Program-made: the position numbers and the translations under genes
Origin: a virus
Strand: one strand, 5' to 3'
Virus record (IMG/VR): IMGVR_UViG_3300031857_000306
Coordinates: 1-49,603 of that record
Length of the DNA: 49,603 nucleotides
Shown here: positions 18,279-39,587 of the stretch, one piece after another
Position numbering within the stretch: the first letter of the stretch is position 1
How the letters are laid out: each line of letters starts with the position of its first letter
Notes under the pieces: generated by a model
The model's input: only the letters and a program-made list of their open reading frames with translations
Told to the model about the DNA's origin: nothing
Database searches by the model: none

Positions 18279-19496
18279 TTAATGTGAGTCTGTTGTTCCA
18301 TGTTTTTCTCCATAAGTTAAATAGTCAGGATTAATTACTTTAGAAATCTTCTTCCTATCTCCAGATATACATTTAACTACGACACCTTCATGTGGTACTT
18401 TAGAATTCTCAATAAAGTTATTAAATACAAATTTATCTTGAATTTCTTTAGACCAGTTACCCTCATATAAATAATCAACTACATTTTGAGCAGTTAGTAT
18501 ATCTTTAATCCTAGATTGAAATTCAAAATCAGATAAATATTCTCCATTAAATTGAATATCAAAAGCTTCAAATTCTATATTTTCATACCCATAATCATAA
18601 TTCTTTTGAATACCTGGTCCAAATATCTCACCATAAATAATGATACCTTTACCTAATAATTTAGGAGTATAATTAGTTTTAACATATCCCCAAAGTAACT
18701 GTTTTATTTGATACTTATCAGCAATTTCTTGCCAAACATCTGTAGAGTAAAAACCTTGAGAATCAGAACCTTTTTCTACATTATGAGAACCATAGACATA
18801 TTCATATTCTATCCATTCATCTCCAAATAATTTCTTAAGTTTATCTAAAGGACTTATAAGATTCTTTTTAACAATACCATATCTAGCATTAGTTCCATGC
18901 ATTTTACGAGTAATTACAACTACATCTAATTCACTAAACATGTGTGGAGTATTCTTTTGATTAGGAAATTTATAATATTTATCAAAATTCACATTATCTT
19001 TATAATATTTTTTAAACTTATTTCTAAGTTTATTAATTTTATAATTTACAAATGATCTCCACATTGAAAATTTATGTATTTTATTCCATTTAAAATATAC
19101 TTTAGGAACACTTACATTTAACATTTCTCTCACAGGAGGTTCATATTTAAATATTTGTAAATCTTCAGATAAATCTTGACCTTCTTTAAAAGTATTTTTA
19201 GTTAATATATCTTTTAAAGGGATTAAAATACATTCACTATAAACACCTTTTAGTTTAACTGTTCTAACCCTAGATTTATTTCTAAGATAGCTAATACAAC
19301 CCCATTGCGTAGCTAAATCTTCAGGTATTACTGCATCAGTTGTAATACATAATATCAAATCACCTTCTTTATGGATGCCTTTTTGGGTAACAGATGTCCA
19401 TCCATTAACAGTACACAATTCTATTTTGTCTGCACCTTCAATAGATTCAATTTTATTAATTTTGTTTATATAACAAACTGAGTTTATATTTTCCAT
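18279..19496 (-). CDS. RNA ligase, Rnl5/DraRnl-like with N-terminal OB-type domain
   Basis: A 405-residue ATP-dependent RNA ligase. The nucleotidyltransferase motifs are visible in order: motif I KMHGTN at 198-203 (Lys198 forms the ligase-AMP adduct), IIYGEIFGPG at 286-295, EFEAFDI at 308-314, EGVVVK at 370-375 (motif IV) and KKISKVI at 382-388 (motif V). About 120 residues of an OB-like domain precede motif I, the arrangement of the Deinococcus Rnl5 family, which seals nicks in RNA or RNA/DNA hybrids. The start is four bases after the stop of the phosphatase-like gene, so the two are co-transcribed. A role in repairing RNAs cut by host defence nucleases is plausible but inferred. Confidence 0.85.
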   Translation of the reverse strand: MENINSVCYINKINKIESIEGADKIELCTVNGWTSVTQKGIHKEGDLILCITTDAVIPEDLATQWGCISYLRNKSRVRTVKLKGVYSECILIPLKDILTKNTFKEGQDLSEDLQIFKYEPPVREMLNVSVPKVYFKWNKIHKFSMWRSFVNYKINKLRNKFKKYYKDNVNFDKYYKFPNQKNTPHMFSELDVVVITRKMHGTNARYGIVKKNLISPLDKLKKLFGDEWIEYEYVYGSHNVEKGSDSQGFYSTDVWQEIADKYQIKQLLWGYVKTNYTPKLLGKGIIIYGEIFGPGIQKNYDYGYENIEFEAFDIQFNGEYLSDFEFQSRIKDILTAQNVVDYLYEGNWSKEIQDKFVFNNFIENSKVPHEGVVVKCISGDRKKISKVINPDYLTYGEKHGTTDSH

Positions 19497-24977: not shown

Positions 24978-25442
24978 CTAATATTGTTTTAACTTGTTAA
25001 TATAACTTGAATCTTGAGAATACTTAACTCTAACTAGAAAGTCATAGTAATTTTCATCAGGTTTAAGTCTTTTCATCTGCCAACATTTATAAGCAATTAC
25101 TGATTCTTTCCAAGATTTATACTTAATAATACTTGTATCAGATGTTTGAAATCCAAACAAAGCATTATATTTTATAAATCTATTAGATGTGTAATTACCT
25201 GTTTCATGTTTAGCTTGAGCTAATACAATAGATGGATATTCTATTTCTAAAATATCCATAAATTCTATTAGTTTAGCTTCACTAAAACCTTCAATTTTAA
25301 TAGTGTCTATTGTATTTGTAGGTTTTGGTAAGGTTAATTTATCATCATTTTTAGTAGTTATGTAAATTAATGCAATACATAATGCTATCATGTTGATAAT
25401 TAATAATTTCTTAACCATTTTATACTTTTCTCTATAATCCAT
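24978..25442 (-). CDS. Membrane-anchored glucosaminidase-type peptidoglycan hydrolase
   Basis: A 154-residue protein with one N-terminal membrane segment (about residues 12-29, LLIINMIALCIALIYI), then a FlgJ/LytF-like glucosaminidase core: YPSIVLAQAKHETGNYTS at 69-86, in which the Glu after AQAKH is the expected catalytic acid, followed by YNALFGF. The domain is short but complete-looking. The uncleaved anchor suggests periplasmic display, as in signal-anchor endolysins, so lysis or entry-related wall cleavage is likely. It overlaps the nuclease gene upstream by 11 bases. Confidence 0.7.
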   Translation of the reverse strand: MDYREKYKMVKKLLIINMIALCIALIYITTKNDDKLTLPKPTNTIDTIKIEGFSEAKLIEFMDILEIEYPSIVLAQAKHETGNYTSNRFIKYNALFGFQTSDTSIIKYKSWKESVIAYKCWQMKRLKPDENYYDFLVRVKYSQDSSYINKLKQY

Positions 25443-26004
25443 AATATTTAGTTTTAATTAGTTTAACACACTTGTTTACATTAGTTAAGTTATTAGGAGC
25501 AAAGTAATCTATATTCCAACCATTTATAGTCCACCAATATTTAAACAATCTAAGTTTAAGAAGATATTCTTCTGTGTAGGATCCCTTAGTTTCAATGATC
25601 CAACCAGTCTTAGTATCTTTATCTAAACAACTAAAATCAGGTTTAATAGTTATTGCTCTAAGATTATTAGTTACTTCACCAAATTGATACACATACTTAG
25701 CTTTCTTCTTATCTTTAAATCTAGCATTAATTCCTAAAGCTTGAGCTTCATCATAAGTCATCATTCTTTTATAAAGCTGATAACTGACTCCTGAAGCTGT
25801 AAATTTACTTTGTAGTTCAAATACATCATCTTCATAGTTAAAGTGTGTTATATTGGCTTTCTGTAAGGCCTGATAACATGCTTTTTCTAATCCAGATCTT
25901 AGTTGAACACCATCATGTACTGTTGGTACACCATGAGGAACAGCTTTCTTCTTTGGTTTTGGGGTAGCTTTAGCTTTCTTAACAAACTTTCTTCTCATCA
26001 CCAT
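25432..26004 (-). CDS. PD-(D/E)XK nuclease, phage endonuclease I / Holliday resolvase type
   Basis: A 190-residue protein. A Lys-rich N-terminal tail is followed by RSGLEKACYQAL at 36-47 (Glu40), KPDF at 121-124 (Asp123) and IIETKG at 136-141 (Glu138, Lys140), which is the E...D...ExK active site of T7 endonuclease I-like and DUF1064-type phage nucleases. Such enzymes resolve branched DNA before packaging. The ATG at 26004 overlaps the upstream gene by 26 bases; Met3 is an alternative. Confidence 0.75.
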   Translation of the reverse strand: MVMRRKFVKKAKATPKPKKKAVPHGVPTVHDGVQLRSGLEKACYQALQKANITHFNYEDDVFELQSKFTASGVSYQLYKRMMTYDEAQALGINARFKDKKKAKYVYQFGEVTNNLRAITIKPDFSCLDKDTKTGWIIETKGSYTEEYLLKLRLFKYWWTINGWNIDYFAPNNLTNVNKCVKLIKTKYYGL

Positions 26005-26425
26005 TTCTTTCTCTCATAATAGCAGTAGTCCAAGTATCAAAGTTTTTAATATACTTTAATCCCATACCTGGATAATCTATCTTTCTATCTACTAATATAC
26101 CTACAGCATCAATTGTAGTATTAGGTTTTAAAGTACTAATAATAGATTGTTCACCATCAAAATGAATATCACTATTAGCTACTATTAATCCTACTTTAGT
26201 AGAGTCATTTAATGCCATTTGAACTCTATCTGTTGGAATATCAAATTGACTAGCAATTGCATTGATATAAATTAAACTATCATTTGTAGTGATAATCCAT
26301 AATTCAAATTCAAATCCTTTAGAAGAATAATCATTCTCTTTTATACCTTTAATTAATTGTCTAAAATCTTCGTTATTCCATATCGAACTTGGTTCAAAAC
26401 TTACCTTAATTTTCTCCATCTTCAT
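25979..26425 (-). CDS. HAD-like hypothetical protein
   Basis: A 148-residue protein. FELWIITTNDSLIYINAIA (39-57) followed by NDSTKVGLIVANSDIHFDG recalls the motif II-III and final-Asp layout of HAD phosphatases, but the N-terminal DxDxT nucleophile motif is absent, so catalysis is doubtful. Met3 is an alternative start. It overlaps the nuclease gene downstream. Confidence 0.45.
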   Translation of the reverse strand: MKMEKIKVSFEPSSIWNNEDFRQLIKGIKENDYSSKGFEFELWIITTNDSLIYINAIASQFDIPTDRVQMALNDSTKVGLIVANSDIHFDGEQSIISTLKPNTTIDAVGILVDRKIDYPGMGLKYIKNFDTWTTAIMRERNGDEKKVC

Positions 26426-26711
26426 CTTTTTTAATATCAGATTCTGCTAATCTAACTTCAGTTAATTCATCTAATTCCCATGATTCTCTAGTTACTAACC
26501 AGCCTAAAGCATTAATTACTCTAGCACCATTAGTAATGTACATATCATCATTTAGTGAATCATCAATTAATGACCATATTCTTTCTAAAGGAACATCTCT
26601 AAGTTGGTCTTTATCTAAGAATAGAAATCCATCTACAGGAGTATCTTTCTCAATAGTATTCTTTATTGGAGAATACTTATCACAAAATTGTGTAAAGTTT
26701 AAGTTAATCAT
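26406..26711 (-). CDS. Hypothetical protein
   Basis: A 101-residue acidic protein. The start chosen at 26711 gives an ATGA overlap with the stop of a 36-codon membrane-protein ORF; an earlier in-frame ATG at 26723 is less likely. The core DDMYITNGARVINALGWLV is orderly, but no family is recognised. Confidence 0.5.
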   Translation of the reverse strand: MINLNFTQFCDKYSPIKNTIEKDTPVDGFLFLDKDQLRDVPLERIWSLIDDSLNDDMYITNGARVINALGWLVTRESWELDELTEVRLAESDIKKDEDGEN

Positions 26712-26818
26712 TTTATTATACATGTTAAAATACCTATTACAATTATTGCTGTAATTAAAATAGAATATCCCACATATTTTAAAGTTTGTAGGAAAATATC
26801 TTCATCATCAGGTATCAT
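26708..26818 (-). CDS. Small single-span membrane protein (36 aa)
   Basis: A 36-codon ORF (MIPDDEDIFLQTLKYVGYS...) with an acidic N-terminus and one strong hydrophobic helix rich in Ile (about residues 16-34) ending CIIK. It is joined to both neighbours by ATGA-type overlaps (26815-26818 and 26708-26711), which strongly supports translation. A holin, spanin-like or membrane-tether role is possible but not shown. Confidence 0.6.
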   Translation of the reverse strand: MIPDDEDIFLQTLKYVGYSILITAIIVIGILTCIIK

Positions 26819-27807
26819 AATAACTTCTTTTTAATTAATTTTTTAGCTTTTTCTAAGTTATACTTTTTAATGTAATCACTAATATCTTTTTCATTAGGTA
26901 TAAAGAAGAACTCTATATCATAAGTTAATAAGAATTCACAAGTTGAAGTATATCCTTGGTCATCATTATCTAGCAATAAAACTAGTCTTTTAAATCTTTT
27001 AGATAATTCATCAAATGATTTCTTACTCATCTTATTAGTTTCAGCTTGTAAACCTACTGCCGATATACCCATTTCATAAAAACATAAAACGTCTTTTAAA
27101 CTTTTTGTAATAATAAGTAAATCTCCTGTTTCTGGTAATTGATCGTATCCCTGCAAACAATCACTACCTACATTACTTAACCACTTACCTTCTTTAGTAA
27201 TAGAATAAGGATTATAGATTTTAAAATATTCCATATTATTTTTAAAGAATTTATAAGAATATAAAGGATTACTATTTTTATACTCAAATACATAATGTTT
27301 ATCTCCTTTATTTAGATAAACATGACTACAAGCTTTAACATTAAAAAATTGCAATGTTTGTAAAGATATACCATATTGCATCCAATACTCATAATCTATT
27401 AAACTAAATGGTTTAACAATTACTTGAATATTAGATTTAACTTTAACTAACTTAGGAGAATCATTGGTTAATAGTAATTGAGGTGTTACACTCAAATTAG
27501 TTCTCTTTAATCCAAAATCATTAGCTATGATATTACACGTTTCATGATAACTAGATCCATACTTTCTACTTACATAATCAAATGCTAGAAAGTAATCTCC
27601 ATTTCCATAATCTTTGTAATAAGGTATTCCTGAAGCACTAATTATAATTCTACAACTACCATTTTTATCTGAGTAAAACTCTGATTTAAAACTAGTGTCT
27701 ATTGATTTATAATTACTACAATATCTTTCTAATATTTGTAACTCTGTAATGTATTTAAGTATTTCATCTTTATTTATCTGTAAACTTGCACTATCAAAAT
27801 TGAACAT
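26815..27807 (-). CDS. TOPRIM (DnaG-type) DNA primase
   Basis: A 330-residue protein with a C-terminal TOPRIM domain: LLIITKSLKDVL at 230-241 (first acidic position replaced, as in some phage primases), GLQAETNKM, LVLLLDNDDQG at 275-285 (Asp280 and Asp282 metal ligands) and EKDISDYI. The N-terminal half resembles a primase catalytic core but shows no classic CHC2 zinc finger. It would make RNA primers with the DnaB-like helicase encoded nearby. It sits between two small genes in the SSB-helicase neighbourhood. Confidence 0.8.
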   Translation of the reverse strand: MFNFDSASLQINKDEILKYITELQILERYCSNYKSIDTSFKSEFYSDKNGSCRIIISASGIPYYKDYGNGDYFLAFDYVSRKYGSSYHETCNIIANDFGLKRTNLSVTPQLLLTNDSPKLVKVKSNIQVIVKPFSLIDYEYWMQYGISLQTLQFFNVKACSHVYLNKGDKHYVFEYKNSNPLYSYKFFKNNMEYFKIYNPYSITKEGKWLSNVGSDCLQGYDQLPETGDLLIITKSLKDVLCFYEMGISAVGLQAETNKMSKKSFDELSKRFKRLVLLLDNDDQGYTSTCEFLLTYDIEFFFIPNEKDISDYIKKYNLEKAKKLIKKKLL

Positions 27808-27811
27808 ATTA

Positions 27812-28063
27812 TTATGTATTATACCAAATTAATTGAGTATCACTAAAGATTTCAATAGTATTTTGACTATCATTTTCATTAGGTGATATAAATTCTTCAG
27901 TATCATATAAAGGTTCACACTGACCTAGTTCCAAATCTATATCGTCATATAACTCTGCAGGTGTTGTACCATTAACAAGTTTATTAGTTACTAATTCTAA
28001 ATCTTCTTTTTTAACAGGAATTCTAAACCAAACTGTTGCTTTGTAATCTATATAGTGCTCCAT
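27812..28063 (-). CDS. Hypothetical protein behind repeated RNA motif
   Basis: An 83-residue acidic protein; VWFRIPVKKEDLELV at the N-terminus and a Glu/Asp-rich middle. No family with known function is recognised. Its start codon lies 17 bases downstream of a stem-closed RNA motif at 28081-28143 that recurs in front of the nucleotidyltransferase gene, so expression may be RNA-controlled. Confidence 0.55.
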   Translation of the reverse strand: MEHYIDYKATVWFRIPVKKEDLELVTNKLVNGTTPAELYDDIDLELGQCEPLYDTEEFISPNENDSQNTIEIFSDTQLIWYNT

Positions 28064-28080
28064 AATTTAATTTTTTATAA

Positions 28081-28143
28081 AGTAATAATAGGCTGAACCC
28101 TCTGCTCGATTTAAGCTAATCCTCTTTAGCACCCATTATTACT
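28081..28143 (-). promoter_or_regulatory. Repeated 5'-UTR RNA motif, copy 1 (riboswitch/operator-like)
   Basis: A 9-bp stem (28081-28089 with 28135-28143) closes a 63-base element. Reading on the minus strand, it holds GGTGCTA, a GCTAA/TTAGC hairpin with loop AGAGGA, then TTAAAT, a GAG-rich strand and AGCC. Copy 2 at 38002-38069 shares the same order of blocks. It ends 17 bases before the start codon of the 83-residue gene. Confidence 0.5.
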
Positions 28144-28375
28144 TAATTATTAATTGCTCTACATGAGATTACTGTAAAGACTAGATTTTAGCTGGTTTCC
28201 TGCTATTTGAGTAACCAATTACTGTCTTACCAGACGTAAACCCTTCAACCATTTACTTGGGGAGAGGATGGTTTTCCAAACGTATTCCCAATGAGTTCTT
28301 TTGTAAAACCTAAGAACCAGCAGCTATAACTTGTGTTAAGGTCAAGTTACCATCACTTTAAGCACCTCTTACTTA
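28144..28375 (-). ncRNA. Structured intergenic RNA region with tandem hairpins
   Basis: No gene is present. Perfect hairpins follow one another: TAGC/GCTA (28189-28205), AGTAA/TTACT (28210-28223), GTCT/AGAC (28224-28235), GTAAA/TTTAC (28236-28256), GTTCTT/AAGAAC (28295-28317) and TAACTTG/CAAGTTA (28327-28349). Three abut with no spacer, which implies coaxial stacking. It lies between SSB (upstream) and the repeated motif. Group I intron core strands and tRNA arms were looked for and not found. Strand is inferred from the operon. Confidence 0.45.
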
Positions 28376-28382
28376 ATATTTA

Positions 28383-28967
28383 TTAAAATGTAACTGAGTC
28401 AGCAGCAGGGCTACTAAAAGTAGTATCTGTTGTAGCTGGTTCAATAGCTAACTTCTTAATGTTTTTCTCAGCACTAAAGAATAACTTAGAATCTGATTCA
28501 GCAACTTGTTTTGATTCACAGAATACACCATTACTAAAAGATGAAGCTACATATTTAGTTCCTTTTTGAGAAACTTTCTCTTCACCAATTACTTTTAATC
28601 TGAATTCTTTACCTGTTAATAAAATAGCAAGTTTTTGAGCTAATTCTTCAGCAGTTTTAGCATTAGGCATCTTAGTCTTAGCTGTAGTTTCATCTAAAGA
28701 GTTAGATGCAGCAACTAAAGCTAATATTGCATTCTTAGAAATATCCCAAGCAGATTTTTGTTTACCTGGATTAACTACTGTACTCAAGTAATACTGTTGT
28801 TTTAATTCTGCTCCATGAGAATCTTCAACTGTAAACTCTAAATAAGGAGTTTGTTTTTGAGTACTTACACCATTAGTAATAGCTGTTACTTTAACAATAC
28901 TAATTCCTGGTTTAATAGTTTCTTTGTAATTACCTTTAGATACTTCTGCGTTTTCAAAATTGAACAT
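28383..28967 (-). CDS. Single-stranded DNA-binding protein, phage type
   Basis: A 194-residue protein with an OB-like beta-rich core (KPGISIVKVTAITNGVSTQ, YLEFTVEDSHGAELKQQYYL) and a flexible Ala/Thr/Ser-rich acidic tail ending DSVTF, the usual SSB protein-interaction tip. It lies just upstream of the TOPRIM primase and next to the Sak4-like ATPase, the standard place for SSB in phage replication modules. The A-rich leader ahead of its ATG (28967) suggests high expression. Confidence 0.75.
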   Translation of the reverse strand: MFNFENAEVSKGNYKETIKPGISIVKVTAITNGVSTQKQTPYLEFTVEDSHGAELKQQYYLSTVVNPGKQKSAWDISKNAILALVAASNSLDETTAKTKMPNAKTAEELAQKLAILLTGKEFRLKVIGEEKVSQKGTKYVASSFSNGVFCESKQVAESDSKLFFSAEKNIKKLAIEPATTDTTFSSPAADSVTF

Positions 28968-29012
28968 AATTTATTTATTTTAATTGTTAATGATTTAATT
29001 TATAGGAGGGAA

Positions 29013-29383
29013 TTACTCTCCTAACTGATATTTTGCTATTTTATCCAAGATTAACTTATAATCATTTGGTTCAAATTTATCTAAACAACCCTCAGGTGAT
29101 TTAGCTAATCTAAGACCATCACTATTAGTTAATAATGAATATTCCATTTTTCCATTCACTTCTTTCACATCAGTGTGAAGGACATAAGTAAAGTATGAAG
29201 GTATTTTGATTTGATTATCTAATAACTTCCCTACTGTTTGTAAAGTAATAACACTATTACCATTCACATCAGTATTTCTTTCTGTATGTCCAATCACTAT
29301 AACATTTAAATCATCACGCAATTGTTCTTCTATTTTAATCAACCCTTGAAATACATCAAGAGCTAAATCTGACCACTTTTGAA
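29013..29383 (-). CDS. RecA/Sak4-like ATPase, exon 2
   Basis: C-terminal part of a P-loop ATPase interrupted by a group I intron. The frame reads QKWSDLALDVFQG, LRDDLNVIVIGHTERN (Walker B strand and sensor), GKLLDNQIKIPSYFTYVLH and AKSPEGCLDKFEPNDYKLI, matching the second half of phage Sak4/RecA-like single-strand annealing ATPases. If read alone the first usable start would be a TTG at 29342, which is not a real start. The exact 3' splice site is estimated (29384 or 29391). Confidence 0.75.
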
Positions 29384-29410
29384 CAAATATCGTATAACTT
29401 TCACTATACG

Positions 29411-29998
29411 TCAGACTATATCTTTTATTATCTTTTTCTTTGCACCAATAGGTTGTTCAAACATTCTTTCAGATGTCCAACCTCTTGATTTTCTATCGTA
29501 AATAATACTTAAAGGTATATTTAATAATTTACTCCATTCTTGAGCAGTTTTAAATTCTCCTTTATAAAAAATTAATTTTAAATTGTTATAAACAATAGCT
29601 TCTTCAAAACTCATATTACTTCTAAATATTCTTTTATGTAAATTATTATAATCTAAATTATATAATTCAGCCCATTCAGAAAGTATTTTTGTTTCTCCAT
29701 TATATGTATAAAGTAAATTAAACTCTCCCCTATTCATACATTGTTGTTTATTTGTAGACCACTTACAATTACCTGGTTCATAGTTTCCTAAATTATCAAT
29801 TCTGTCTAAAGAATGATTTTCAGGAGCTTTTCCCATATCTTGTAAAAAGTCTTCAAAAGAATTCTTCCACCTATCACAAACTTGAATATTATTTTCATAA
29901 TATTTACCGTGATTTTTATTACATGTAGAATAACATCTAGCTTTCATATTTTTCCAAGCTCTATATTCTTTTGTTAATTTACCATTAATTCTTCTCAT
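29411..29998 (-). CDS. HNH homing endonuclease (intron-encoded)
   Basis: A 195-residue HNH endonuclease: YRAWKNMKARCYSTCN at the N-terminus, CDRWKNSFEDFLQDMG, then HSLDRIDNLGNYEPGNCKW, the HNH core of phage homing enzymes, followed by DNA-binding repeats with ILSEWAELYNLDY and SKLLNIPLSIIY. It sits inside the group I intron and would cut intronless alleles to spread it. Its stop codon overlaps the catalytic S strand of the intron. A Bacteroidota-type promoter precedes the ATG. Confidence 0.88.
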   Translation of the reverse strand: MRRINGKLTKEYRAWKNMKARCYSTCNKNHGKYYENNIQVCDRWKNSFEDFLQDMGKAPENHSLDRIDNLGNYEPGNCKWSTNKQQCMNRGEFNLLYTYNGETKILSEWAELYNLDYNNLHKRIFRSNMSFEEAIVYNNLKLIFYKGEFKTAQEWSKLLNIPLSIIYDRKSRGWTSERMFEQPIGAKKKIIKDIV

Positions 29999-30014
29999 AT
30001 TATTTATTTTATTA

Positions 30015-30048
30015 CAAAGATACGATAATAACCTACCTTTTCGACAAA
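30015..30048 (-). promoter_or_regulatory. Bacteroidota-type promoter ahead of HNH gene
   Basis: On the minus strand TTTG (30045-30048) and TATCTTTG (30015-30022), an exact TAnnTTTG -7 box, are 22 bases apart; the HNH ATG follows 16 bases later. Consensus spacing is about 19-21, so spacing is slightly long. Confidence 0.5.
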
Positions 30049-30265
30049 TTTTCGACTAAAATTTATCTACTCTACTCCATTCATATTTTCACAAATATGT
30101 GTTTCGATAGTCGTTGAACCTTCATCTCATAAAGATGCTTGGCTGCTGATTGTCCAATTCTTACCTCTTTTACTATACTACAATCATTACTGTTGTAGGG
30201 AGTGTGTAAGACTCTAAGGAGTTTCCAGTCAGTTAAATAGGTTTATCCTGAGCTTCAATTTTAGT

Positions 30266-30566
30266 AGAACCCATTAATCTTAGAGTCTGCCATAACTCTA
30301 CTAGTTAAAAAGTGAGTAAAATCTTCTATGACAATAGTTTTAAACTTAGTACCTGCATTAGCTTTAGTTAAAATAACTTTAAGCTCAGGAAAAGTACTAC
30401 AATTAACTACATTGCCTTTATCTACACTGTATTTCACAGCACCACCTCTAAAAGGTAGTTCTTTTCTATTAGGTTTAATTAATAGAGTTGTATTCTCATC
30501 TAAATTTAATATACCTCTTGACTTCCCGGAACCAGGTTCTCCAATAACTAATACTATTCTTCCCAT
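30266..30566 (-). CDS. RecA/Sak4-like ATPase, exon 1
   Basis: N-terminal part of the split ATPase: MGRIVLVIGEPGSGKS with Walker A GEPGSGKS at 9-16, then TTLLIKPNRKELPFRG and TIVIEDFTHFL (78-88), the Walker B strand. With exon 2 the protein is about 223 residues, the usual size of phage Sak4-type recombination ATPases that act with SSB. Unspliced reading would stop at 30261 after ...KINGFY. It starts one base after the stop of the DnaB-like helicase. Confidence 0.75.
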
Positions 30567-30567
30567 G

Positions 30568-30903
30568 TTATTTGTTTAAGTATCTTGTGTAATCTTCTGA
30601 TGTCATTTCTTTAGGTAATTCTTCAAAGTAACCAGCTTCAGGTTTGGTATATAAACCAATAGATATATTGTCTTGACCTAATCTATTTTTAATTACCTTA
30701 AGAAGTCTGTATTTACCTTTTAAATTATAAGGAAATCCATCTACTTTAATATTGTAATTTAAGTTGGTTTCTAAATCCATTTTATAGGCATTCATTAAAC
30801 CCATTACTATATCAGCATCTTGGTAAGGAGAAGTTGAGTCTTTGAAATCAGTTTGTTGTGGAGAAATATCTGCACCTTTAAACTTTAATCGTTCAACACT
30901 ACT
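30568..30903 (-). CDS. DnaB-like replicative helicase, exon 2
   Basis: C-terminal part of a DnaB-family helicase: SSVERLKFKGADISPQQTDF, then PYQDADIVMGLMNAYKMD and YRLLKVIKNRLGQDNISIGL with ELPKEM, which correspond to the arginine-finger and C-terminal strands of phage DnaB helicases. It follows a group I intron; in-frame GTG at 30906 is not expected to be a real start. It ends next to the ATPase gene. Confidence 0.8.
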   Translation of the reverse strand, partial: SSVERLKFKGADISPQQTDFKDSTSPYQDADIVMGLMNAYKMDLETNLNYNIKVDGFPYNLKGKYRLLKVIKNRLGQDNISIGLYTKPEAGYFEELPKEMTSEDYTRYLNK

Positions 30904-31092
30904 CACATGTTATGTTAACTGCAACTTATTTTGTTATACTTGCAGAGCAGACTATACCATTATCCTATAGACTATAGGATACCCATTGGTAGTCGTTACG
31001 AGCTTATTAATTTCACAATTAATCTATCTCTCGGTATTGTCCTCTTCAGGATGTCCACCGATATTCTGGGTTATTCAAAGTATGTTACCATA

Positions 31093-31809
31093 CTAGGGGG
31101 CCGAGTAAAACCACTTATTATTTCTGTATATGTTATTTGTTTTTAAACATTTTGTAATATTACTTGGGTGTACATTAAAAAAAACCGCAACATCAGTTGC
31201 ACAATCCCATTTTTTAATAAAGTTACCTTCTAAATCATATTGCAATAATTCACGATGCCTACCTTTTCTTTTAAAAACATTTAATTTATTTTGAAATTTA
31301 AATATTGCCATATCTAATCTTATCCAATAATAATTATATGCTGTTTTTGTTAAATTACTATTACAAGACTCATAAACCCTTGTACACTTTTTAACATTTA
31401 AAAAAGTTTTTACCTCGTCTATTGTTTTAAAAACTTTTACTAACTTACCTTGTTTATTATAACATCCAAAATAGATTTTATCTTTTAATATAATAGGTTT
31501 TTCTATATCGTCCCAAGTATTTGAGACAACAGTGGCCTTATTATATCCGTATTTTGGATTTATTGATTGGTATTTATTAATATAAAATTGTTCAGCTCTT
31601 CTCAGTATATTATTAGAAACTTCTCTTATTAATTCAAACTTGAAATTATTCTCTCCATACTTATTATATGAAGATTGTAAGTGTTTGTTAATGTGTAAGT
31701 TACCTTTTAATTTACTAATATGTGCTTTAATTCTACTATCTATATTTATTGCACTACCAATATAAACTTTGTTTGTTACTAAATTTGTTATTTTGTATAT
31801 TCCTGTCAT
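31093..31809 (-). CDS. GIY-YIG homing endonuclease (intron-encoded)
   Basis: A 238-residue enzyme: GIYKITNLVTNKVYIGSA (3-20) is the GIY-YIG motif, followed by RIKAHISKLKG with the catalytic Arg, NKHLQSSYNKYGENNF and Glu in RRAEQFYI. The C-terminal half carries an intron-endonuclease DNA-binding repeat (LLQYDLEGNFIKKWDCATDV) of NUMOD1/IENR1 type. It lies in the 5' half of the helicase intron and should promote its homing. A promoter-like TTTG-N20-TATATTTA stands just upstream. Confidence 0.88.
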   Translation of the reverse strand: MTGIYKITNLVTNKVYIGSAINIDSRIKAHISKLKGNLHINKHLQSSYNKYGENNFKFELIREVSNNILRRAEQFYINKYQSINPKYGYNKATVVSNTWDDIEKPIILKDKIYFGCYNKQGKLVKVFKTIDEVKTFLNVKKCTRVYESCNSNLTKTAYNYYWIRLDMAIFKFQNKLNVFKRKGRHRELLQYDLEGNFIKKWDCATDVAVFFNVHPSNITKCLKTNNIYRNNKWFYSAP

Positions 31810-31812
31810 ATT

Positions 31813-31844
31813 TAAATATACGAAATAACTTTAACATACACAAA
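31813..31844 (-). promoter_or_regulatory. Bacteroidota-type promoter ahead of GIY-YIG gene
   Basis: On the minus strand TTTG (31841-31844), a 20-base spacer and TATATTTA (31813-31820; TAnnTTTG with one mismatch). The endonuclease ATG (31809) begins three bases later, so transcription from it would be leaderless or start inside the gene; the match may instead serve a slightly downstream start. Confidence 0.4.
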
Positions 31845-31865
31845 TTAATTTGTGATTTTTTTATG

Positions 31866-32588
31866 AAACCCTTGATTAAATTGGGCCACAATATAGAATG
31901 TCATATTAAACATATTTCTACATCCTACAATGTATTCAGATATTTTATCAATATTCTGTTTAAGTGTAAACCCTCTTTCTATCTTACCTAAAGCTAAGTG
32001 ATCTAATACTACAATATTATATTCTTCTTTATTATAAGCTGTCCAACCTGTTATTCTGTCTTTAGGATTACCATCATCATCAATATAAGGTATAGTTGTA
32101 AACTTACCTTTATCTGACATTGTTTTCCACCACTCAGAGTACAATCCAGTAGGATTAACCGGTGTCCAATGCCAAGTAATCTTTGAAAATAGTTCTTCTA
32201 ATTCAGGTAATGTATCATAAACTATTTCTTGTTCTTCTTCAGTTAACCTAGAATCACCTAATCCCTTAATAGTCTGAGGAGAGATAACTCTGTCATACTT
32301 ATTATAGATTAGTACAGATAACCAATTGGCTTTTTTACTTACTTCATCAATCTCCCAAGAGTAATAAGTTACATTAAATGGGATACCTTTTGCCTGAGCA
32401 TCTTGTAAACCATTTAGTAATATAAAATCACAAAGTGTCGTCTTACTAGATCCACTTAAACCACCGATTAAAGTGTAGCAACCTCTTTGTATATTATAAA
32501 TATACTTATTAATTCTGTCAAATCCATTAGCTAATCCTGTATATTCACCTGATAAACCCTGTTCTATCCTCTGTTTAAATTGCGTCAT
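31866..32588 (-). CDS. DnaB-like replicative helicase, exon 1
   Basis: N-terminal part of a DnaB/gp41-type helicase lacking the usual DnaB N-terminal domain. LIGGLSGSSKTTL is Walker A, YNIVVLDHLAL is Walker B, and TFYIVAQFNQG ends the exon at the strand before the H4/arginine-finger region. The start at 32588 (MTQFKQRIEQG) overlaps the upstream gene by 14 bases; an ATG at 32636 would overlap 62. With exon 2 the helicase is about 352 residues. It would unwind the fork and recruit the TOPRIM primase. Confidence 0.8.
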
Positions 32589-33177
32589 AGTCTGTGTTTG
32601 GTTTAGGTAATACTTCAAGATTAGTAACTTCATCAAGATATTGTTCCCAAGTTCTTTGAGAAAGGTAAGTAGCTAATAATTGCATAAATTCTTGTTTATT
32701 ATCTTTAAGATGGTCTCTGTGATATTTTTGCACACATAATAATATCTTCTTATGTAATTCTTTATTAACCAAACCAATACTCACTATCGTCGATTTATAT
32801 AATTTTTTACATCGTTGTAGATCATTATGTAGTGGTCTAGTACCACCAGTAATTCTTTTAACAGATTTTGGATAAGTAGACAGTAGTTCTTTAAATAGTA
32901 TTTCAAATTCTTTATTATCTGAAACATTAAATAAATTTTTAGCCTGGTCTGTTACTTTAATCTCATTAAATAGAATATTTGATTCATCTTTCAAGATAAT
33001 AAATCCAGAATCTCTTAATCTTTGAAATATTAATGTTTCTATTCTACCTGTGGTAGAAATATACTTCATTAACATTTCTTCTTCATTGTGAACTAAACAA
33101 AATAATACGAACCAATCCTCAATTTTAAGCTTATTAGTATATAATTTTGTTAAGTCTACACTAATTTGTTCAATCAT
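32575..33177 (-). CDS. Conserved hypothetical protein upstream of helicase
   Basis: A 200-residue helical protein, IEDWFVLFCLVHNEEEML near the N-terminus, Lys-rich in the middle. Its position between an SF2 helicase and the DnaB-like helicase suggests a replication accessory such as a helicase loader, but no motif proves it. It overlaps the SF2 gene by four bases (ATGA type). Confidence 0.5.
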   Translation of the reverse strand: MIEQISVDLTKLYTNKLKIEDWFVLFCLVHNEEEMLMKYISTTGRIETLIFQRLRDSGFIILKDESNILFNEIKVTDQAKNLFNVSDNKEFEILFKELLSTYPKSVKRITGGTRPLHNDLQRCKKLYKSTIVSIGLVNKELHKKILLCVQKYHRDHLKDNKQEFMQLLATYLSQRTWEQYLDEVTNLEVLPKPNTDYDAI

Positions 33178-34253
33178 ACGTACATAATTTTGTCTTGTCT
33201 AAATCCACTTAACGCAGATTTAACCCACTGTTCATCAATTGTATCTTTATAACATAGTATGTGTATAGTACTACAATCATTAGGATTTAACCTAAGAAAC
33301 CTAAATATCTTTTGACTAGCTTTTCTCTCATTGCCGTAAGAGTGTAGTATTATTCCATATTTAAGATTAGGTATATTAATTCCTTCTGATAGTTGCTCTA
33401 CAGCACATAATTTTAATAATTTACTTTGTTTAAATAACTCTAAATTTGAATCTGAGAACTTATTATTTGAATGATAAGTTGTTGTACAGATTCTAGCTGA
33501 TTGCTCTTGAGTACTAGCAAAACAAAGACATTTATTAAATTCTCCTATACTATTAAGAAGATATCGAGCTTTTAATTCCTTTGATAAAAATCCCTGCATT
33601 GCCTTCATGCGTTGAATAGCTGCAATCTGCTTCATTTTACCAATAGAATTATCTACTCTTCCTGTCCAATAATTATAGACAGCTAATTCACTTGTCATCC
33701 AAGTAGCTTGAGGTTTCACAACCTTAATATTTTTCTCTCCATCTAAATTAATATAATGTACTACAATTCTGTAGTCATTTAAAATAGAATGATCAATTGC
33801 CTCATCAGTATTATATGAGTATATAATAGGACAATACTTATCTATCATAAACCCTCTTTCAGATTTAGAATCTGTAGGAGGAGTTCCTGTTAGTCCTATA
33901 ATATATCCTCGATACTTACTTAACCAAGCATTATGAGAAAGTTTTAAAGAGTGACACTCATCTACATATATCCCATCATAATCATGATTTTGCTTATTTA
34001 AAGATATATATGTAGAAAATGTAATATTTTCAAGAAGATATTCAAGATTAAACTTTTTAGCGTCATCTTTCCAAGACTGAAAAATAGATTTCTTTGGAGC
34101 AACTACTAAAAATCTACAATGACCAAATTGCTTTGTAGCCATATGTTTTAATCCTATAAGGGTTTTACCTGTTCCTCCACTTAATGCTACACTAGCTCTA
34201 CTTTTATCTTCTAATAATGACAATACTTTTTCTTGAATAAGATCTTTAGTCAT
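33174..34253 (-). CDS. SF2 DNA/RNA helicase (DECH box)
   Basis: A 359-residue superfamily 2 helicase: motif I SGGTGKT at 25-31, motif Ia LVVAPKKS, motif II VDECH at 97-101, motif III LTGTPP at 121-126, and motifs V-VI in QLSEGINIPNLKYG and SQKIFRFLR. It is near the size of T4 UvsW-like and other minimal recombination helicases. In this operon it likely acts in recombination or fork restart. It ends in overlap with the unknown gene downstream. Confidence 0.85.
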   Translation of the reverse strand: MTKDLIQEKVLSLLEDKSRASVALSGGTGKTLIGLKHMATKQFGHCRFLVVAPKKSIFQSWKDDAKKFNLEYLLENITFSTYISLNKQNHDYDGIYVDECHSLKLSHNAWLSKYRGYIIGLTGTPPTDSKSERGFMIDKYCPIIYSYNTDEAIDHSILNDYRIVVHYINLDGEKNIKVVKPQATWMTSELAVYNYWTGRVDNSIGKMKQIAAIQRMKAMQGFLSKELKARYLLNSIGEFNKCLCFASTQEQSARICTTTYHSNNKFSDSNLELFKQSKLLKLCAVEQLSEGINIPNLKYGIILHSYGNERKASQKIFRFLRLNPNDCSTIHILCYKDTIDEQWVKSALSGFRQDKIMYV

Positions 34254-34254
34254 A

Positions 34255-34458
34255 TTAGTCTACAATCATGTAAGATGGTTTGTGAAACTTACGAATAGTC
34301 AAATTACAATCTTTTAATAGTTTAGTAGTTTGAGCTACATTTAAACCATAATAAGTTGCAATAGTTTCTTTCTTAGCACCATTATTAACCATAGTAGTTA
34401 ATTCTGATTTAGAAATAGTTTTAGGTGTGTTAGGTGTGTTTAAATTTGTTGTTTCCAT
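34255..34458 (-). CDS. Small HTH DNA-binding protein
   Basis: A 67-residue protein with a Thr/Pro/Asn N-terminal tail and a helix-turn-helix at about 19-52 (GAKKETIATYYGLNVAQTTK). It may regulate transcription of the replication block. It starts after an A-rich leader, directly downstream of the Tad2-family gene, and is followed one base later by the SF2 helicase. Confidence 0.6.
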   Translation of the reverse strand: METTNLNTPNTPKTISKSELTTMVNNGAKKETIATYYGLNVAQTTKLLKDCNLTIRKFHKPSYMIVD

Positions 34459-34480
34459 GTTTATTTATTTTATTTGTTTA

Positions 34481-34753
34481 TTAATTTAATATTATCCAAT
34501 CTTCTGCTAACGTATCACTTCCGCTTGGTGTCCAAGTTGCAATATCTTCTTGCGTTGTTTTTAAAGCCCAATAAGCACGATAAGGAACTAACTCACCTTT
34601 AAAATAATCTTTCATCACTTGTGTGCTTGCTGGATAAGCATTAGCTGGCACAATGTATGCAAACATACCTGAACCATTCCATCCAGTTCTAGCTACTTTT
34701 TTACCTTGTTTGGCAGCTTCAACAGCTTGTCCAAAATTTAAATTTTCTGTCAT
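34481..34753 (-). CDS. tad2: Tad2 (DUF2829) anti-Thoeris protein
   Basis: A 90-residue DUF2829 protein: LNFGQAVEAAKQGKKVAR at the N-terminus, GWNGSGMFAYIVP at 24-36 and AEDWIIL at 83-89, the family's conserved ends. DUF2829 proteins are known as Thoeris anti-defence 2, which forms tetramers and sequesters the cyclic ADP-ribose signal made by ThsB, blocking the Thoeris abortive response. Length and ends are normal for the family. It overlaps the upstream gene by four bases. Activity against a host system is inferred from the family. Confidence 0.85.
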   Translation of the reverse strand: MTENLNFGQAVEAAKQGKKVARTGWNGSGMFAYIVPANAYPASTQVMKDYFKGELVPYRAYWALKTTQEDIATWTPSGSDTLAEDWIILN

Positions 34754-35043
34754 ATTATTTGTTTATTATTTAAAAATTCTATTAAGTAGGTGTAATCTTG
34801 TGGTTCTTCGATAACAGGAGCTAGTTTAATACCTAATACATGTTCTTTGAATTGGTCAAAAGTTATAGAAACCACCCACCCCCCCAGCCAGCACCGAGTC
34901 CCTTCCCAATTTATATAATTAGAAGGACAAGGTTTATCTGAAAATTTAATAATATTAATTCTCCAATTATCTACAATTGGTCTTTGTTCTTCAGTAAAGT
35001 TTAAATACCAATTATTATATGGGAATGTAGATTTTTCTGTCAT
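34750..35043 (-). CDS. Paralogous phage protein with ITxxQFKxxVL module
   Basis: A 97-residue protein started at ATG 35043, one base after the stop of the GIY-YIG gene; the longer in-frame reading overlaps that gene by 86 bases and is unlikely. It has NWYLNFTEEQRPIVDNW, then VVSITFDQFKEHVLG and DYTYLIEFL. The same modules occur in at least two other proteins here (182 and 385 residues). The minus-strand coding sequence contains a run of seven G (34879-34885), odd for this AT-rich genome. Function unknown. Confidence 0.6.
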   Translation of the reverse strand: MTEKSTFPYNNWYLNFTEEQRPIVDNWRINIIKFSDKPCPSNYINWEGTRCWLGGWVVSITFDQFKEHVLGIKLAPVIEEPQDYTYLIEFLNNKQII

Positions 35044-35044
35044 G

Positions 35045-35782
35045 TTATAATACTTTAACTCCTTGAAATAATTTAAATTCCCATTTAAAATTTCCGGCTT
35101 TTTTTGATTTATTTCTACAACAACAACCAATACTTTGACTATTGATGTTTAATTCTAATGCTGCTGTTTTAATACTTTCCCATTCTTTTATAAAATTCAT
35201 ATTTAAATCATATTGTAATACTGGTTTCATTCTTGCTTTGGTAGCATTATTTTTATGTTGTAGAGTTTGCTTTTTTCCTTTATGACAAGCTATAAGTATA
35301 TCTATATGTTTTTGAGGTAATTTTCGTCCTTTAAAAGCATTACTTATATTTTTACGATGTTCTTCTGTAAAAATCCGACCTTTACCTGCCCTACTCATGT
35401 TTTCTCTCGTCTCTTTTGAATGTTTAAATCCTTTATTAGATGTACTAATTTTAAGTCTAATTTCATCACTAAAAACACTATAAGTATCTCCAAATTTAGG
35501 TAATTTACAATTTAACCCCTCTTCTTTTTCTAGCGCATTAAATCCCCATCCAATCATAGTTTCATATTTATACATCTCTTCAATAGGACCAGCCCAAATT
35601 ACATCAAAAGCATGGTTTTCATAACCATATTTAGATAAACTTCTATATAATTTTGTTTGTCCCTTACAATGTAATCTCTTATATTGAGAAAATCTATAAT
35701 CAAAATCAATTGTAGACCCTATATAAATTTTTCTTTTTGGGTTGGTAATCATATAAATAAACCCTATTCCACTTATTTTCAT
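35045..35782 (-). CDS. Free-standing GIY-YIG homing endonuclease (Seg-like)
   Basis: A 245-residue enzyme when started at ATG 35782; the ATG at 35809 would place the start within a promoter-like TATCTTTA. GIGFIYMITNPKRKIYIGS is the GIY-YIG motif. NUMOD3-type repeats follow (SKETRENMSRAGKGR, TEEHRKNISNAFKGRKL), and a NUMOD1-like C-terminal segment (VLQYDLNMNFIKEWESIKTA) ends it. No group I core strands flank it, and the neighbouring genes are not obviously halves of one gene, so it looks free-standing. Confidence 0.82.
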   Translation of the reverse strand: MKISGIGFIYMITNPKRKIYIGSTIDFDYRFSQYKRLHCKGQTKLYRSLSKYGYENHAFDVIWAGPIEEMYKYETMIGWGFNALEKEEGLNCKLPKFGDTYSVFSDEIRLKISTSNKGFKHSKETRENMSRAGKGRIFTEEHRKNISNAFKGRKLPQKHIDILIACHKGKKQTLQHKNNATKARMKPVLQYDLNMNFIKEWESIKTAALELNINSQSIGCCCRNKSKKAGNFKWEFKLFQGVKVL

Positions 35783-35798
35783 ATCTGTATTTTTATTA

Positions 35799-35806
35799 TA
35801 AAGATA
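35799..35806 (-). promoter_or_regulatory. Promoter-like -7 box ahead of free-standing GIY-YIG gene
   Basis: TATCTTTA (minus strand) followed by TAATAAAA, a block nearly identical to that before the HNH gene (TATCTTTG TAATAAAA). No convincing TTTG lies at the proper distance upstream. Confidence 0.3.
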
Positions 35807-35836
35807 CAAAAATAAGAGGAATATTTAAAAGGTTAT

Positions 35837-36304
35837 TTATACATTTTTTGAAAACAAGACTTCTAACCAAGTATTTAATGAAGGTGATGTATTATTGATT
35901 AGATGTTCAATTGTTCTAGGATCTACTCCACCATTCCATCGTACATAACCACCATTATTACCTGTAGATTTATTTTTACCAATTCGTAAATCAATTGAAA
36001 ATTTTGAAGTAGTATTTAAAAGAACTTTATCTCCCGTATAATGTAAAAACACATGCATACCTCCAGATTTAGTTTTATAGTTATAACTTTTAACTAATTC
36101 TTTAAATATATTATCTGGTATATTCTCATATCCATTACCTTTACCTTCCTTACAATCAATATCCACGATAACCATTTTTTCATCTGTTGGACAAACTGCT
36201 AAATTATAATCTTTTCCAGGTAGTTCTCCTTCGTAAAATACACCATCGGGGAGCATTGAAAATTTAATCGTAGGTACGTTTTTATGTAGCAAAAAACTTT
36301 TCAT
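35837..36304 (-). CDS. Prim-Pol-like (archaeo-eukaryotic type) primase domain protein
   Basis: A 155-residue protein with the AEP/Prim-Pol pattern: MVIVDIDCKEGKG at 45-57 (the catalytic hDhD pair), KTKSGGMHVFLHY (GGxH), SIDLRIGKN (third acidic strand) and NNGGYVRWN. It is about the length of the bare catalytic module of bifunctional primase/polymerase proteins, lacking a fused helicase. Having both this and a TOPRIM primase suggests different priming tasks. It overlaps the upstream gene by four bases. Confidence 0.7.
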   Translation of the reverse strand: MKSFLLHKNVPTIKFSMLPDGVFYEGELPGKDYNLAVCPTDEKMVIVDIDCKEGKGNGYENIPDNIFKELVKSYNYKTKSGGMHVFLHYTGDKVLLNTTSKFSIDLRIGKNKSTGNNGGYVRWNGGVDPRTIEHLINNTSPSLNTWLEVLFSKNV

Positions 36305-36603
36305 CTTAAATTATTTAATAAATTTACTAGTGCATCATGATTTTCATAATTTAAATCTCCAATATATTTTATAACTTCTTCCATTGAATTAAAACATTTA
36401 GAATCTTGATTAGATTTAACACCATAGTTTACTACAGTTACTCCAAACATATCTAGATCTAAAAACTTTGAACCAGTAGATATTTCTGCTATACCGTTTT
36501 TAAGATTTACATATCCTAGTATTTGAGGTGTCATAAAATTATTACCTTTTACAACATCTCTAAAATTTATACCTGTTCTTGAATCAAATGGTTCTAATTT
36601 CAT
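36301..36603 (-). CDS. Hypothetical protein
   Basis: A 100-residue protein, no recognisable family. VNLKNGIAEISTGSKFLD and FGVTVVNYGVKSN suggest a small beta-rich domain. It is joined to the Prim-Pol-like gene by an ATGA overlap and to the gene before it by one base. Confidence 0.5.
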   Translation of the reverse strand: MKLEPFDSRTGINFRDVVKGNNFMTPQILGYVNLKNGIAEISTGSKFLDLDMFGVTVVNYGVKSNQDSKCFNSMEEVIKYIGDLNYENHDALVNLLNNLR

Positions 36604-36791
36604 TATATAAATATTTTTAAAGTTTTATTATCATCTTGTAAAGAAGCATTTACTTCATACTCTATGTAATCTGTACCTACACCTTTGCTATGAACTAAAC
36701 ATCTACCAAAAGTATACTTATTACTATTATGGTTAATAACTTCAAATCTAGTTATATCTTTAAGTAACCAATTTAATAATAACTGTTTCAT
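36603..36791 (-). CDS. Hypothetical protein
   Basis: A 62-residue basic protein, beta-rich, no known family. One-base overlaps (TAATG) on both sides argue that it is translated as part of the polycistron. Confidence 0.5.
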   Translation of the reverse strand: MKQLLLNWLLKDITRFEVINHNSNKYTFGRCLVHSKGVGTDYIEYEVNASLQDDNKTLKIFI

Positions 36792-37042
36792 TAGAAAGTA
36801 TATTGCATTTTAGCGTCTTCAGTGCTCCAAAAAGCTTTATAGTTTCTATCTTTACAATAATTGTAAAGTCTATCTACTTCTTGAGCTATGAATGAATCAG
36901 CTTTAATCTCAGGTTCTAATGCATCAAGTAATTGATTCTTAGTTAAACCTTTATGTTGTGCATAACCTATTAAGGTTACTATACTGCTATTTCTTGAACC
37001 TTGTTCAAATGAAATATTATTCTCGTTTATAAAATCTCTCAT
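36791..37042 (-). CDS. Hypothetical protein
   Basis: An 83-residue protein. IVTLIGYAQHKGLTKNQLLDAL followed by IAQEVDRLYNYC resembles the small winged or helical DNA-binding segments at the C-terminus of phage primases (PriCT-like). It could be a detached primase accessory domain for the neighbouring Prim-Pol-like protein; this is inference. Confidence 0.5.
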   Translation of the reverse strand: MRDFINENNISFEQGSRNSSIVTLIGYAQHKGLTKNQLLDALEPEIKADSFIAQEVDRLYNYCKDRNYKAFWSTEDAKMQYTF

Positions 37043-37044
37043 AA

Positions 37045-37227
37045 TTAAATATTGGAATAAGGGTTATCACTTAAAAATTGTTTTAATTCTTCTTCTGATT
37101 GGAAACCTAATTCACTCCAATCTTTTTTTCGAGATATACCATCCCAAACATCTTTAGCATTATGTTTGCTAGCTTCATGTTTCATATTTTGTAATTCTTG
37201 CAATAAGCGATCTATTTCACTTCCCAT
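37045..37227 (-). CDS. Hypothetical protein
   Basis: A 60-residue charged helical protein (IDRLLQELQNMKHEASKHN), probably a coiled coil; no family recognised. Spacing to neighbours is two and twelve bases. Confidence 0.45.
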   Translation of the reverse strand: MGSEIDRLLQELQNMKHEASKHNAKDVWDGISRKKDWSELGFQSEEELKQFLSDNPYSNI

Positions 37228-37239
37228 GTTATGTTGTTA

Positions 37240-37986
37240 TTAAATAAATGTTTGTAATATTAATTGATTTTCAGGTGTCATCTTTTGTTCAAGTTTCCAA
37301 ACTTGTAGTATTTGTAAAACAATACTAAACTCTTTTTGAGTCCTATCATAAAATTCAGTACCTTTTTGTGTTTTGTAAATATTATCTTCATCAAGAATTT
37401 CTTGAATCATAGAAATATATTTTTCAGTTACAGAAGTTAAGTCATACCCTCTTTCTGTATATTTAATTACCCTAAGAAATTGTCGAATTAGTCTTCTACA
37501 AGACCATTGATCTACTATATGGAAACTTGTATTCCAACTATTGTATGTACCAACATAATCTTTAGATTCTCTTAATGAAAGGTACTTACCTGTTTTTAAA
37601 CAGTATCCTTGAGCTATTAAATCAATATCAAATGCACTTAAAACATCAAAGATATTCTTTTGATATTTTTTAAATACAATATTAATTGGAATACATAAAT
37701 TATAAGTAAATTTAAGTGTTATCAACCCTATACTAGCCAATGATGACTTGTTTCTCTGAGTATACTCATTAAATTTGTGTAATTCTAGTTTGTCCAATAT
37801 ATTAAACATTGGATTATAATGCATAAAATATAATAATGCTGTAAAACTTTGTTCATCATAACAGAAGATGTCAATATCTTGATTCCAGTCTTCTTGGTAT
37901 CCTAACATTGCGCTACCTGCAATACAAGCATTTAAGTTTTCTTGCTTTTTAATAAGCGTAATTGCATTTTCAAATTGTTCTTTCAT
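37240..37986 (-). CDS. Nucleotidyltransferase-fold protein
   Basis: A 248-residue protein whose N-terminus has the NTase fold signature: AGSAMLG at 23-29 then NQDIDIFCY (Asp pair) and a third acidic strand in FDIDLIAQGY. Helical segments follow. Substrate is unknown; related proteins include tRNA nucleotidyltransferases, aminoglycoside NTases and MNT-type antitoxins. It may act on the phage's RNAs, but nothing proves it. Its start lies 15 bases downstream of the second copy of a repeated RNA motif (38002-38069). Confidence 0.65.
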   Translation of the reverse strand: MKEQFENAITLIKKQENLNACIAGSAMLGYQEDWNQDIDIFCYDEQSFTALLYFMHYNPMFNILDKLELHKFNEYTQRNKSSLASIGLITLKFTYNLCIPINIVFKKYQKNIFDVLSAFDIDLIAQGYCLKTGKYLSLRESKDYVGTYNSWNTSFHIVDQWSCRRLIRQFLRVIKYTERGYDLTSVTEKYISMIQEILDEDNIYKTQKGTEFYDRTQKEFSIVLQILQVWKLEQKMTPENQLILQTFI

Positions 37987-38001
37987 TTAATTAGTTTTAA
38001 A

Positions 38002-38069
38002 ATAAATAGGCTGTGGTCATTACTCACATTTAACTATTCCCTGTGTCGGCAGAATAGCACCTAATTTAT
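38002..38069 (-). promoter_or_regulatory. Repeated 5'-UTR RNA motif, copy 2 (riboswitch/operator-like)
   Basis: Closed by ATAAATAGG/CCTAATTTAT. On the minus strand it holds GGTGCTA, whose CTATTC pairs with GAATAG (38034-38057), then TTAAAT, a GAG-containing strand and AGCC. Block order matches copy 1 at 28081-28143. It ends 15 bases before the nucleotidyltransferase ATG and abuts the stop of the preceding gene. Confidence 0.5.
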
Positions 38070-38567: not shown

Positions 38568-38623
38568 GTTGGTTTTTTGTTTTAATTGTTAATTATTAGT
38601 TGTTATTTGTTTTTGTTAATTTA

Positions 38624-39568: not shown

Positions 39569-39587
39569 TGGTTATTTGTTTGGGTTG

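Follow-up and report, generated by a model that had tools for sequence, protein, structure and literature searches.

Two sites in a viral sequence of 49,603 nucleotides (IMG/VR record IMGVR_UViG_3300031857_000306, analysed over its whole length and hereafter called the window) belong to a family of small three-armed RNA folds, about 45–80 letters long, whose reality as an RNA family is nearly certain. The consensus is a tight three-way junction with an outer stem (P1) closed by two G-C pairs and a U.G pair, a hairpin of free sequence (P2), the joining strand U(U)AAAU, a second hairpin (P3) usually opened by a G-C pair, and a conserved A. The fold is modular and bounded by P1; it is a cis element of phage transcription units, located at unit boundaries and kept across hosts. 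This covarying family spans four host groups and reaches into a classic model phage (Lactococcus sk1), yet in Rfam 15, at gathering and relaxed thresholds, the window copies and members of several subfamilies gave chance-level matches only and no family. A search of the open-access literature found no description of the element; most subscription journals and bioRxiv lay outside its scope, and a prior report is possible. We regard the element as a new RNA family, one of the orphan RNAs of phages, and there is a real chance that it represents a new functional class. From the comparative analysis, our tentative reading is a module for RNA processing at the boundaries of phage transcripts, which may be a self-cleaving ribozyme. 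Whatever its role, the element works across hosts, and its locations include tRNA arrays and the gaps between core replication genes. A ribozyme class, a device for antitermination or a block to nucleases could come to light through it, and some of the non-coding RNA found in the tRNA clusters of phages would be accounted for.

Two copies of the element in the window

Both copies lie on the minus strand: copy 1 from 28143 to 28081 (AGTAATAATGGGTGCTAAAGAGGATTAGCTTAAATCGAGCAGAGGGTTCAGCCTATTATTACT) and copy 2 from 38069 to 38002 (ATAAATTAGGTGCTATTCTGCCGACACAGGGAATAGTTAAATGTGAGTAATGACCACAGCCTATTTAT). An earlier, sequence-only reading had reported this repeated motif 15–17 bases before start codons, and the measured gaps agree: 17 nt separate copy 1 from the ATG of an 83-aa gene (27812–28063, minus strand) and 15 nt separate copy 2 from the ATG of a 248-aa gene (37240–37986, minus strand). 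The window contains the gapped core GGTGCTA..TTAAAT..AGCC twice, whereas none of 200 dinucleotide shuffles contains it. A covariance model built with both copies scores copy 1 at 42.3 bits and copy 2 at 54.2 bits, and detects no further significant site in the window. The sequence-only reading described a stem with one hairpin. That motif is real, but the stretch between TTAAAT and AGCC, which it noted as 'GAG...', forms the second hairpin, P3, and turns the layout into a three-way junction.

The two copies share one architecture: a long P1 ending in GGU/GCC, the P2 hairpin, the joining strand U(U)AAAU, the P3 hairpin, an A and the 3' strand of P1. The covariance score and the minimum free energy (MFE) fold both support the whole junction of copy 1 (28081–28143), with an MFE of -19.2 (z = -3.65 against its own shuffles, 0 of 200 as good). 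In this fold, the P1 5' strand (AGUAAUAAUGGGU, 28131–28143) pairs with 28081–28093 through 13 bp that include a G.U and the invariant U.G. The P2 hairpin (GCUAA-AGAGGA-UUAGC) occupies 28115–28130 and the P3 hairpin (GAGC-AGAGG-GUUC) 28095–28107; between them lies the conserved joining strand J2/3 (UUAAAUC), at 28108–28114. The conserved A (28094) and the P1 3' strand (GCCUAUUAUUACU) complete the element at 28081–28094. Copy 2 (38002–38069) has the same order of parts, assigned from its covariance score and fold: a P1 5' strand ending in AGGU (38059–38069) with its partner at 38002–38011, a P2 hairpin (GCUAUUC ... GAAUAGU, 38033–38058) that covaries across members, the joining strand UAAA (38029–38032) and a P3 hairpin (UGUG ... 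CACA, 38012–38028). Its folding energy is only moderate (z = -1.5, with 17 of 200 shuffles as good) and would be unremarkable on energy alone.

The sequence-only reading proposed looking for further copies in related phages; these exist in two crAss-like relatives (loci L210 and L313) and, beyond them, in many unrelated phages. Upstream of copy 1 lies a 194-aa gene (28383–28967, minus strand); in L210 and L313, its orthologues (71% and 28% identity, respectively) also precede the element. Downstream of the 83-aa gene is a DNA primase-like gene with a Toprim domain (26815–27807, minus strand). In all three phages the element occupies the slot that separates the 194-aa gene from the primase, while the gene behind it differs: the 83-aa gene in the window, a 56-aa ORF in L210 and the primase itself in L313. 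The L210 slot copy has diverged (12.8 bits); the L313 copy scores 44 bits and adjoins a primase that is 42% identical to the window primase over the aligned part. For the 83-aa protein, we found no relatives in phage isolates and a single near-identical locus in a scan of IMG/VR. Between the 194-aa gene and copy 1 are about 240 nt without an ORF (28144–28382, minus strand) with an ordinary fold (z = -0.85); the counterpart of this gap in L210 is about 22 nt.

Copy 2 sits between a 165-aa ORF (38070–38567, minus strand), whose stop codon abuts P1, and the 248-aa gene. The latter encodes a protein without relatives in phage isolates and has an orthologue in L210 that is 58% identical. There too the element is found, 25 nt before the start codon, and this copy has been kept with wholly different hairpins.

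Family searches and covariation

A loose first pattern scan of IMG/VR returned mostly chance matches and was reused as a negative control pattern, in which the P2 bases are unpaired. A few of its matches carried CTANN..NNTAG immediately 5' of TTAAATG. The tighter CTA/TAG pattern identified 49 loci (37 distinct) in IMG/VR with P1, P2 and P3 pairing in most of them, and two scans that exchanged the third P2 pair (CTG/CAG or CTC/GAG) or the second (CCA/TGG) added 90 and 34 matches. Together, the three IMG/VR scans gave 86 distinct matches with P1 extended by at least two pairs. The pairing statistics cover all distinct pattern matches and involve no selection. P1 continued through all three of its next pairs in 38%, 38% and 64% of the three sets versus 6–9% after shuffling, and P2 through its next two in 78%, 56% and 52% versus 20–23%. 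The control pattern (P1, 4%; P2, 14%) had no excess over its own shuffles. P3 paired in 38% versus 14%, often with a two-base bulge. P1 ranges from approximately 5 to 15 bp among members and has no fixed ends.

The search patterns fix GGTG, TTAAATG and AGCC, so that the conservation of these letters in pattern-found members is by construction and core conservation can be tested solely on members recovered by BLAST, model or synteny. An alignment of 20 hand-chosen, and hence somewhat selected, members (A2) has a covariation score of 0.385 versus 0.137 ± 0.019 when shuffled and at most 0.147 when slid. In Vibrio phage ZQ26 and Pelagibacter phage HTVC115P, the replacement of G-C by A-U in P1 gives AGUG..AGCU, and the P2 stems of skunaviruses change freely (GTAC/GTAC, GTGC/GTGC, CAAAC/GTTTG) around an unchanged joining strand. 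Variants of the joining strand (UCAAAUG, AUAAAUG) are present in further copies of the multicopy locus L157. Furthermore, the covariance model R1, built from the CTA/TAG types and the two window copies, recovers the other P2 types and the skunavirus copies; a further model, R2, detects the CCA/TGG type poorly. The suggestion that differing hairpins which still pair reflect covariation is borne out across the family: P1, P2 and P3 covary, P1 and P2 strongly.

The element looks self-contained because the flanks outside P1 are not conserved among members. Long complements of UUAAAUG are not clearly enriched in flanks or loops, and no outside pairing partner emerged. As a general family feature, Watson-Crick pairing between the P2 and P3 loops (L2 and L3) was not significant by permutation: native loops paired no better than permuted ones overall (140 of 500 permutations as good). 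Single subfamilies do show L2/L3 swaps (ACGAG/CUUGU and ACGGG/CCUGU). One subfamily common to Bacillus and Vibrio phages (L142, L130, L259, L286, L200, L201 and L318) has conserved loops (ATAGNGAGGCT and GTAAATGAGGAACTAAC) on changing stems, which suggests tertiary contacts of the loops or exchange between phages.

Distribution of the element

Isolated phages with the element include Lactococcus phages 53802, CHPC781 and other skunaviruses, among them sk1 with two tandem copies upstream of tRNA-Trp, at 27387–27501 of NC_001835. It is also carried by Bacillus phage Eldridge, phage f2b1 (Bastillevirinae; host given as Staphylococcus), the Vibrio and Pelagibacter phages named above, Bradyrhizobium phage BDU-MI-1 and Lactococcus garvieae phage PLG-II. 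The hosts of the carrier phages belong to Bacteroidota, Bacillota, Pseudomonadota and SAR11, from gut, marine, soil and dairy sources, and the members' contigs range from approximately 28 to 62% GC. Several copies per phage occur, for example three clear ones in L157 and five in L294. A mobile element with an empty site was considered and rejected: the skunavirus alignment has two tandem copies, kept or partly deleted, and no clean empty site.

A slightly stricter pattern matched four times in 84,980 bacterial and archaeal genomes, and two of these matches are convincing. Under strict filters, the covariance model found the element in 1 of 398 genomes around Peribacillus, the positive being the centre genome itself, and in none of 296 genomes of a Bacteroidetes sample. 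At 1 of 694 bacterial genomes over these two samples, the family is close to virus-only. The Peribacillus simplex copy (L196, 4049–4107) is single and lies among transporter, GyrI-like and aminotransferase genes with no obvious prophage. Its position between ordinary chromosomal genes means that the family is not strictly viral.

Genomic context

Most of the 82 matches that were placed relative to genes are intergenic and have the same orientation as the flanking ORFs. More than a quarter begin 7–18 nt 3' of a stop codon. The genes that follow are diverse in function (primase, exonuclease, PhoH, a polymerase subunit, tRNAs). A tRNA lies within 400 nt of 32 of the 102 distinct members, as against 13% of positions drawn at random from these loci. 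All 57 nearby tRNAs are on the element's strand, which amounts to at most 32 independent observations, since tRNA arrays are co-oriented. In the Trp, Ile, Leu, Asn and Tyr cases, the tRNA begins 6–19 nt after the element, and a spacing of 6–12 nt recurs in several unrelated phages; a preceding tRNA ends 2–36 nt away. These distances do not fit a theta or HDV-like ribozyme, for which a cleavage site within about 1 nt of a tRNA end would be expected. The element is not itself a tRNA as judged by ARAGORN and the Rfam tRNA model, neither of which calls it. An integron attC reading of GTTAAAT was also rejected, as the complementary box is absent and the topology is wrong.

A candidate RNA-processing module

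The presence of like cores in phages of several phyla, without a conserved flank, argues for an element that would work without a host-specific partner. It probably acts alone or on a very conserved target, as it needs no flanks and recurs across host phyla. Acting on its own transcript at cistron or tRNA boundaries, it would be a processing module, perhaps a small ribozyme that cleaves itself, and would cut apart or trim the units of which long phage transcripts consist. Processing, possibly by self-cleavage, is the leading reading because phage hammerhead and theta ribozymes are the closest parallels in anatomy and context: a small junction core, an outer stem that is arbitrary and several copies on one transcript (PMC3088659; PMC10879173). 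Its mostly intergenic, strand-consistent placement, the recurrent spacing to tRNAs and stop codons, and the turnover of neighbouring genes favor processing as well. More doubtful is the narrower proposal that the family is a new class of small self-cleaving ribozyme cutting polycistronic and tRNA transcripts in phages of several phyla. Against processing, the core resembles no known ribozyme, one copy is in a bacterial chromosome (L196) between metabolic and transporter genes, and the L157 copies, each 36–174 nt behind a sigma70-like promoter, fit leader functions too.

Hammerheads in prophages and phages are reported to flank genes (PMC3088659), and the element resembles them in its three-way junction, short conserved core, free stems, intergenic location and copies flanking changing genes (PMC3088659). 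Unlike hammerheads, it lacks the hammerhead core strings and is not matched by the Rfam hammerhead models. Theta ribozymes are minimal HDV-like ribozymes with nested double pseudoknots, more than 80% of them from gut phages, whose cleavage site adjoins a tRNA (±1 nt) in 77% of cases and which are proposed to process tRNA 3' ends (PMC10879173). Like them, the element is a small RNA of tailed phages found beside tRNA genes and also away from tRNAs (PMC10879173). In contrast to theta ribozymes, the element is a simple nested three-way junction for whose joining strand no pseudoknot partner emerged; it usually stands 6–12 nt before the tRNA 5' end when adjacent to one, and extends to phages of marine, soil and dairy hosts. 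In a check for an HDV-like double pseudoknot, the strand between the hairpins had no outside partner and the Rfam HDV models were silent.

Alternative functions

Processive antitermination or anti-Rho activity, in which the nascent fold would bind RNA polymerase for read-through of tRNA arrays and intercistronic gaps, is rather unlikely as the general function. The put RNAs of phage HK022, the precedent for such activity, consist of two hairpins rather than a three-way junction. The likeness is one of possible function only, a cis-acting phage RNA at the start of an untranslated transcript. The elements do sit where translated RNA yields to untranslated: after stop codons, before tRNA arrays, and behind promoters in L157, where the three copies are in a long non-coding tRNA transcript, and in L125, where the promoter is also clear. 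The polymerase would furthermore provide a conserved target common to phages of very different hosts. However, promoter-like sites upstream of the element are only slightly enriched (14% versus 6% at a threshold of 10.5, redundant loci included), and this mild enrichment led us to reject a promoter-proximal leader as a general rule. The model had no match in HK022 25000–40751, and antitermination leaves the crAss-like copies 15–30 nt before start codons unexplained.

Unlikely, too, is a nuclease roadblock or stabiliser, a junction that halts exonucleases and protects one side after a host RNase cut, for example by RNase P at the following tRNA. The recurrent location right after stop codons and 6–12 nt before tRNA 5' ends would suit such a block, as would the long P1 of some members, and a ligand would be unnecessary. 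Yet plain stable hairpins would suffice for this purpose, leaving the strict U(U)AAAU and closing U.G unexplained unless they build a special fold, and the same core is found in phages whose hosts have different exonuclease sets.

We consider it quite unlikely that the family as a whole is a cis-regulatory aptamer, that is, a riboswitch or translational operator with a ligand or phage protein at the junction altering translation of the next gene. The sequence-only reading favored such a regulator. Of that reading, a structured, covarying RNA in cis in transcripts stands, whereas the general rule of an operator of translation at start codons is not supported. Both window copies and those of L210, L266, L217 and others are 15–32 nt before a start codon. 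After four of the five L294 copies (948–1730 and 6622–6700) come a second, similar hairpin and a ribosome-binding-like site, GGAGAGAAA. Across the 82 matches, however, the distance to the next ORF start ranges from 8 nt to over 500 nt (quartiles 66–357 nt), and many copies stand before tRNA genes, for which there is no start codon. The downstream genes have no common function, the gene behind the conserved slot of copy 1 changes, and no conserved flank could serve as a common expression platform. We therefore rejected a riboswitch or operator whose position relative to the start codon or to an expression platform is constant, a relation that holds for a subset of copies only. Purine-type riboswitches are three-way junctions in which P1 is open and both hairpins vary, an architecture that the element recalls. 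It differs from them in its junction letters and in its absence from the leaders of purine genes, and general loop-loop pairing is not supported.

A small trans-acting RNA cut from tRNA-type transcripts, such as a decoy for a host factor or for a tRNA-attacking host defence, is highly improbable: the location in tRNA arrays and spacing like that of another array member (L145, L325 and L329) are in its favor, but P1 varies in length without fixed ends and most copies have no tRNA nearby. The T4 tRNA cluster encodes rnaC and rnaD (species 1 and 2), small stable RNAs that are themselves unexplained. The element is like them as a small RNA in a phage tRNA cluster, but the model had no match in T4 69000–74000.

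tRNA-like sequences and an RNA ligase gene

We also identified in the window a sequence at 44981–45046 (minus strand) that matches the Rfam tRNA model with 51 bits and is not called by ARAGORN. Its anticodon arm looks shortened (CTA-GATA-TAG), and the RNA may be tRNA-like without a normal anticodon loop. In sk1 (L341), the non-coding end of the middle transcript (3500–4000) contains many degenerate tRNA-like T-arms after tRNA-Trp. The window also encodes an RNA ligase (phrog_968; 18279–19496, minus strand), and an RNA ligase of the DRB0094 family is mentioned in phages with tRNA-associated theta ribozymes (PMC10879173).
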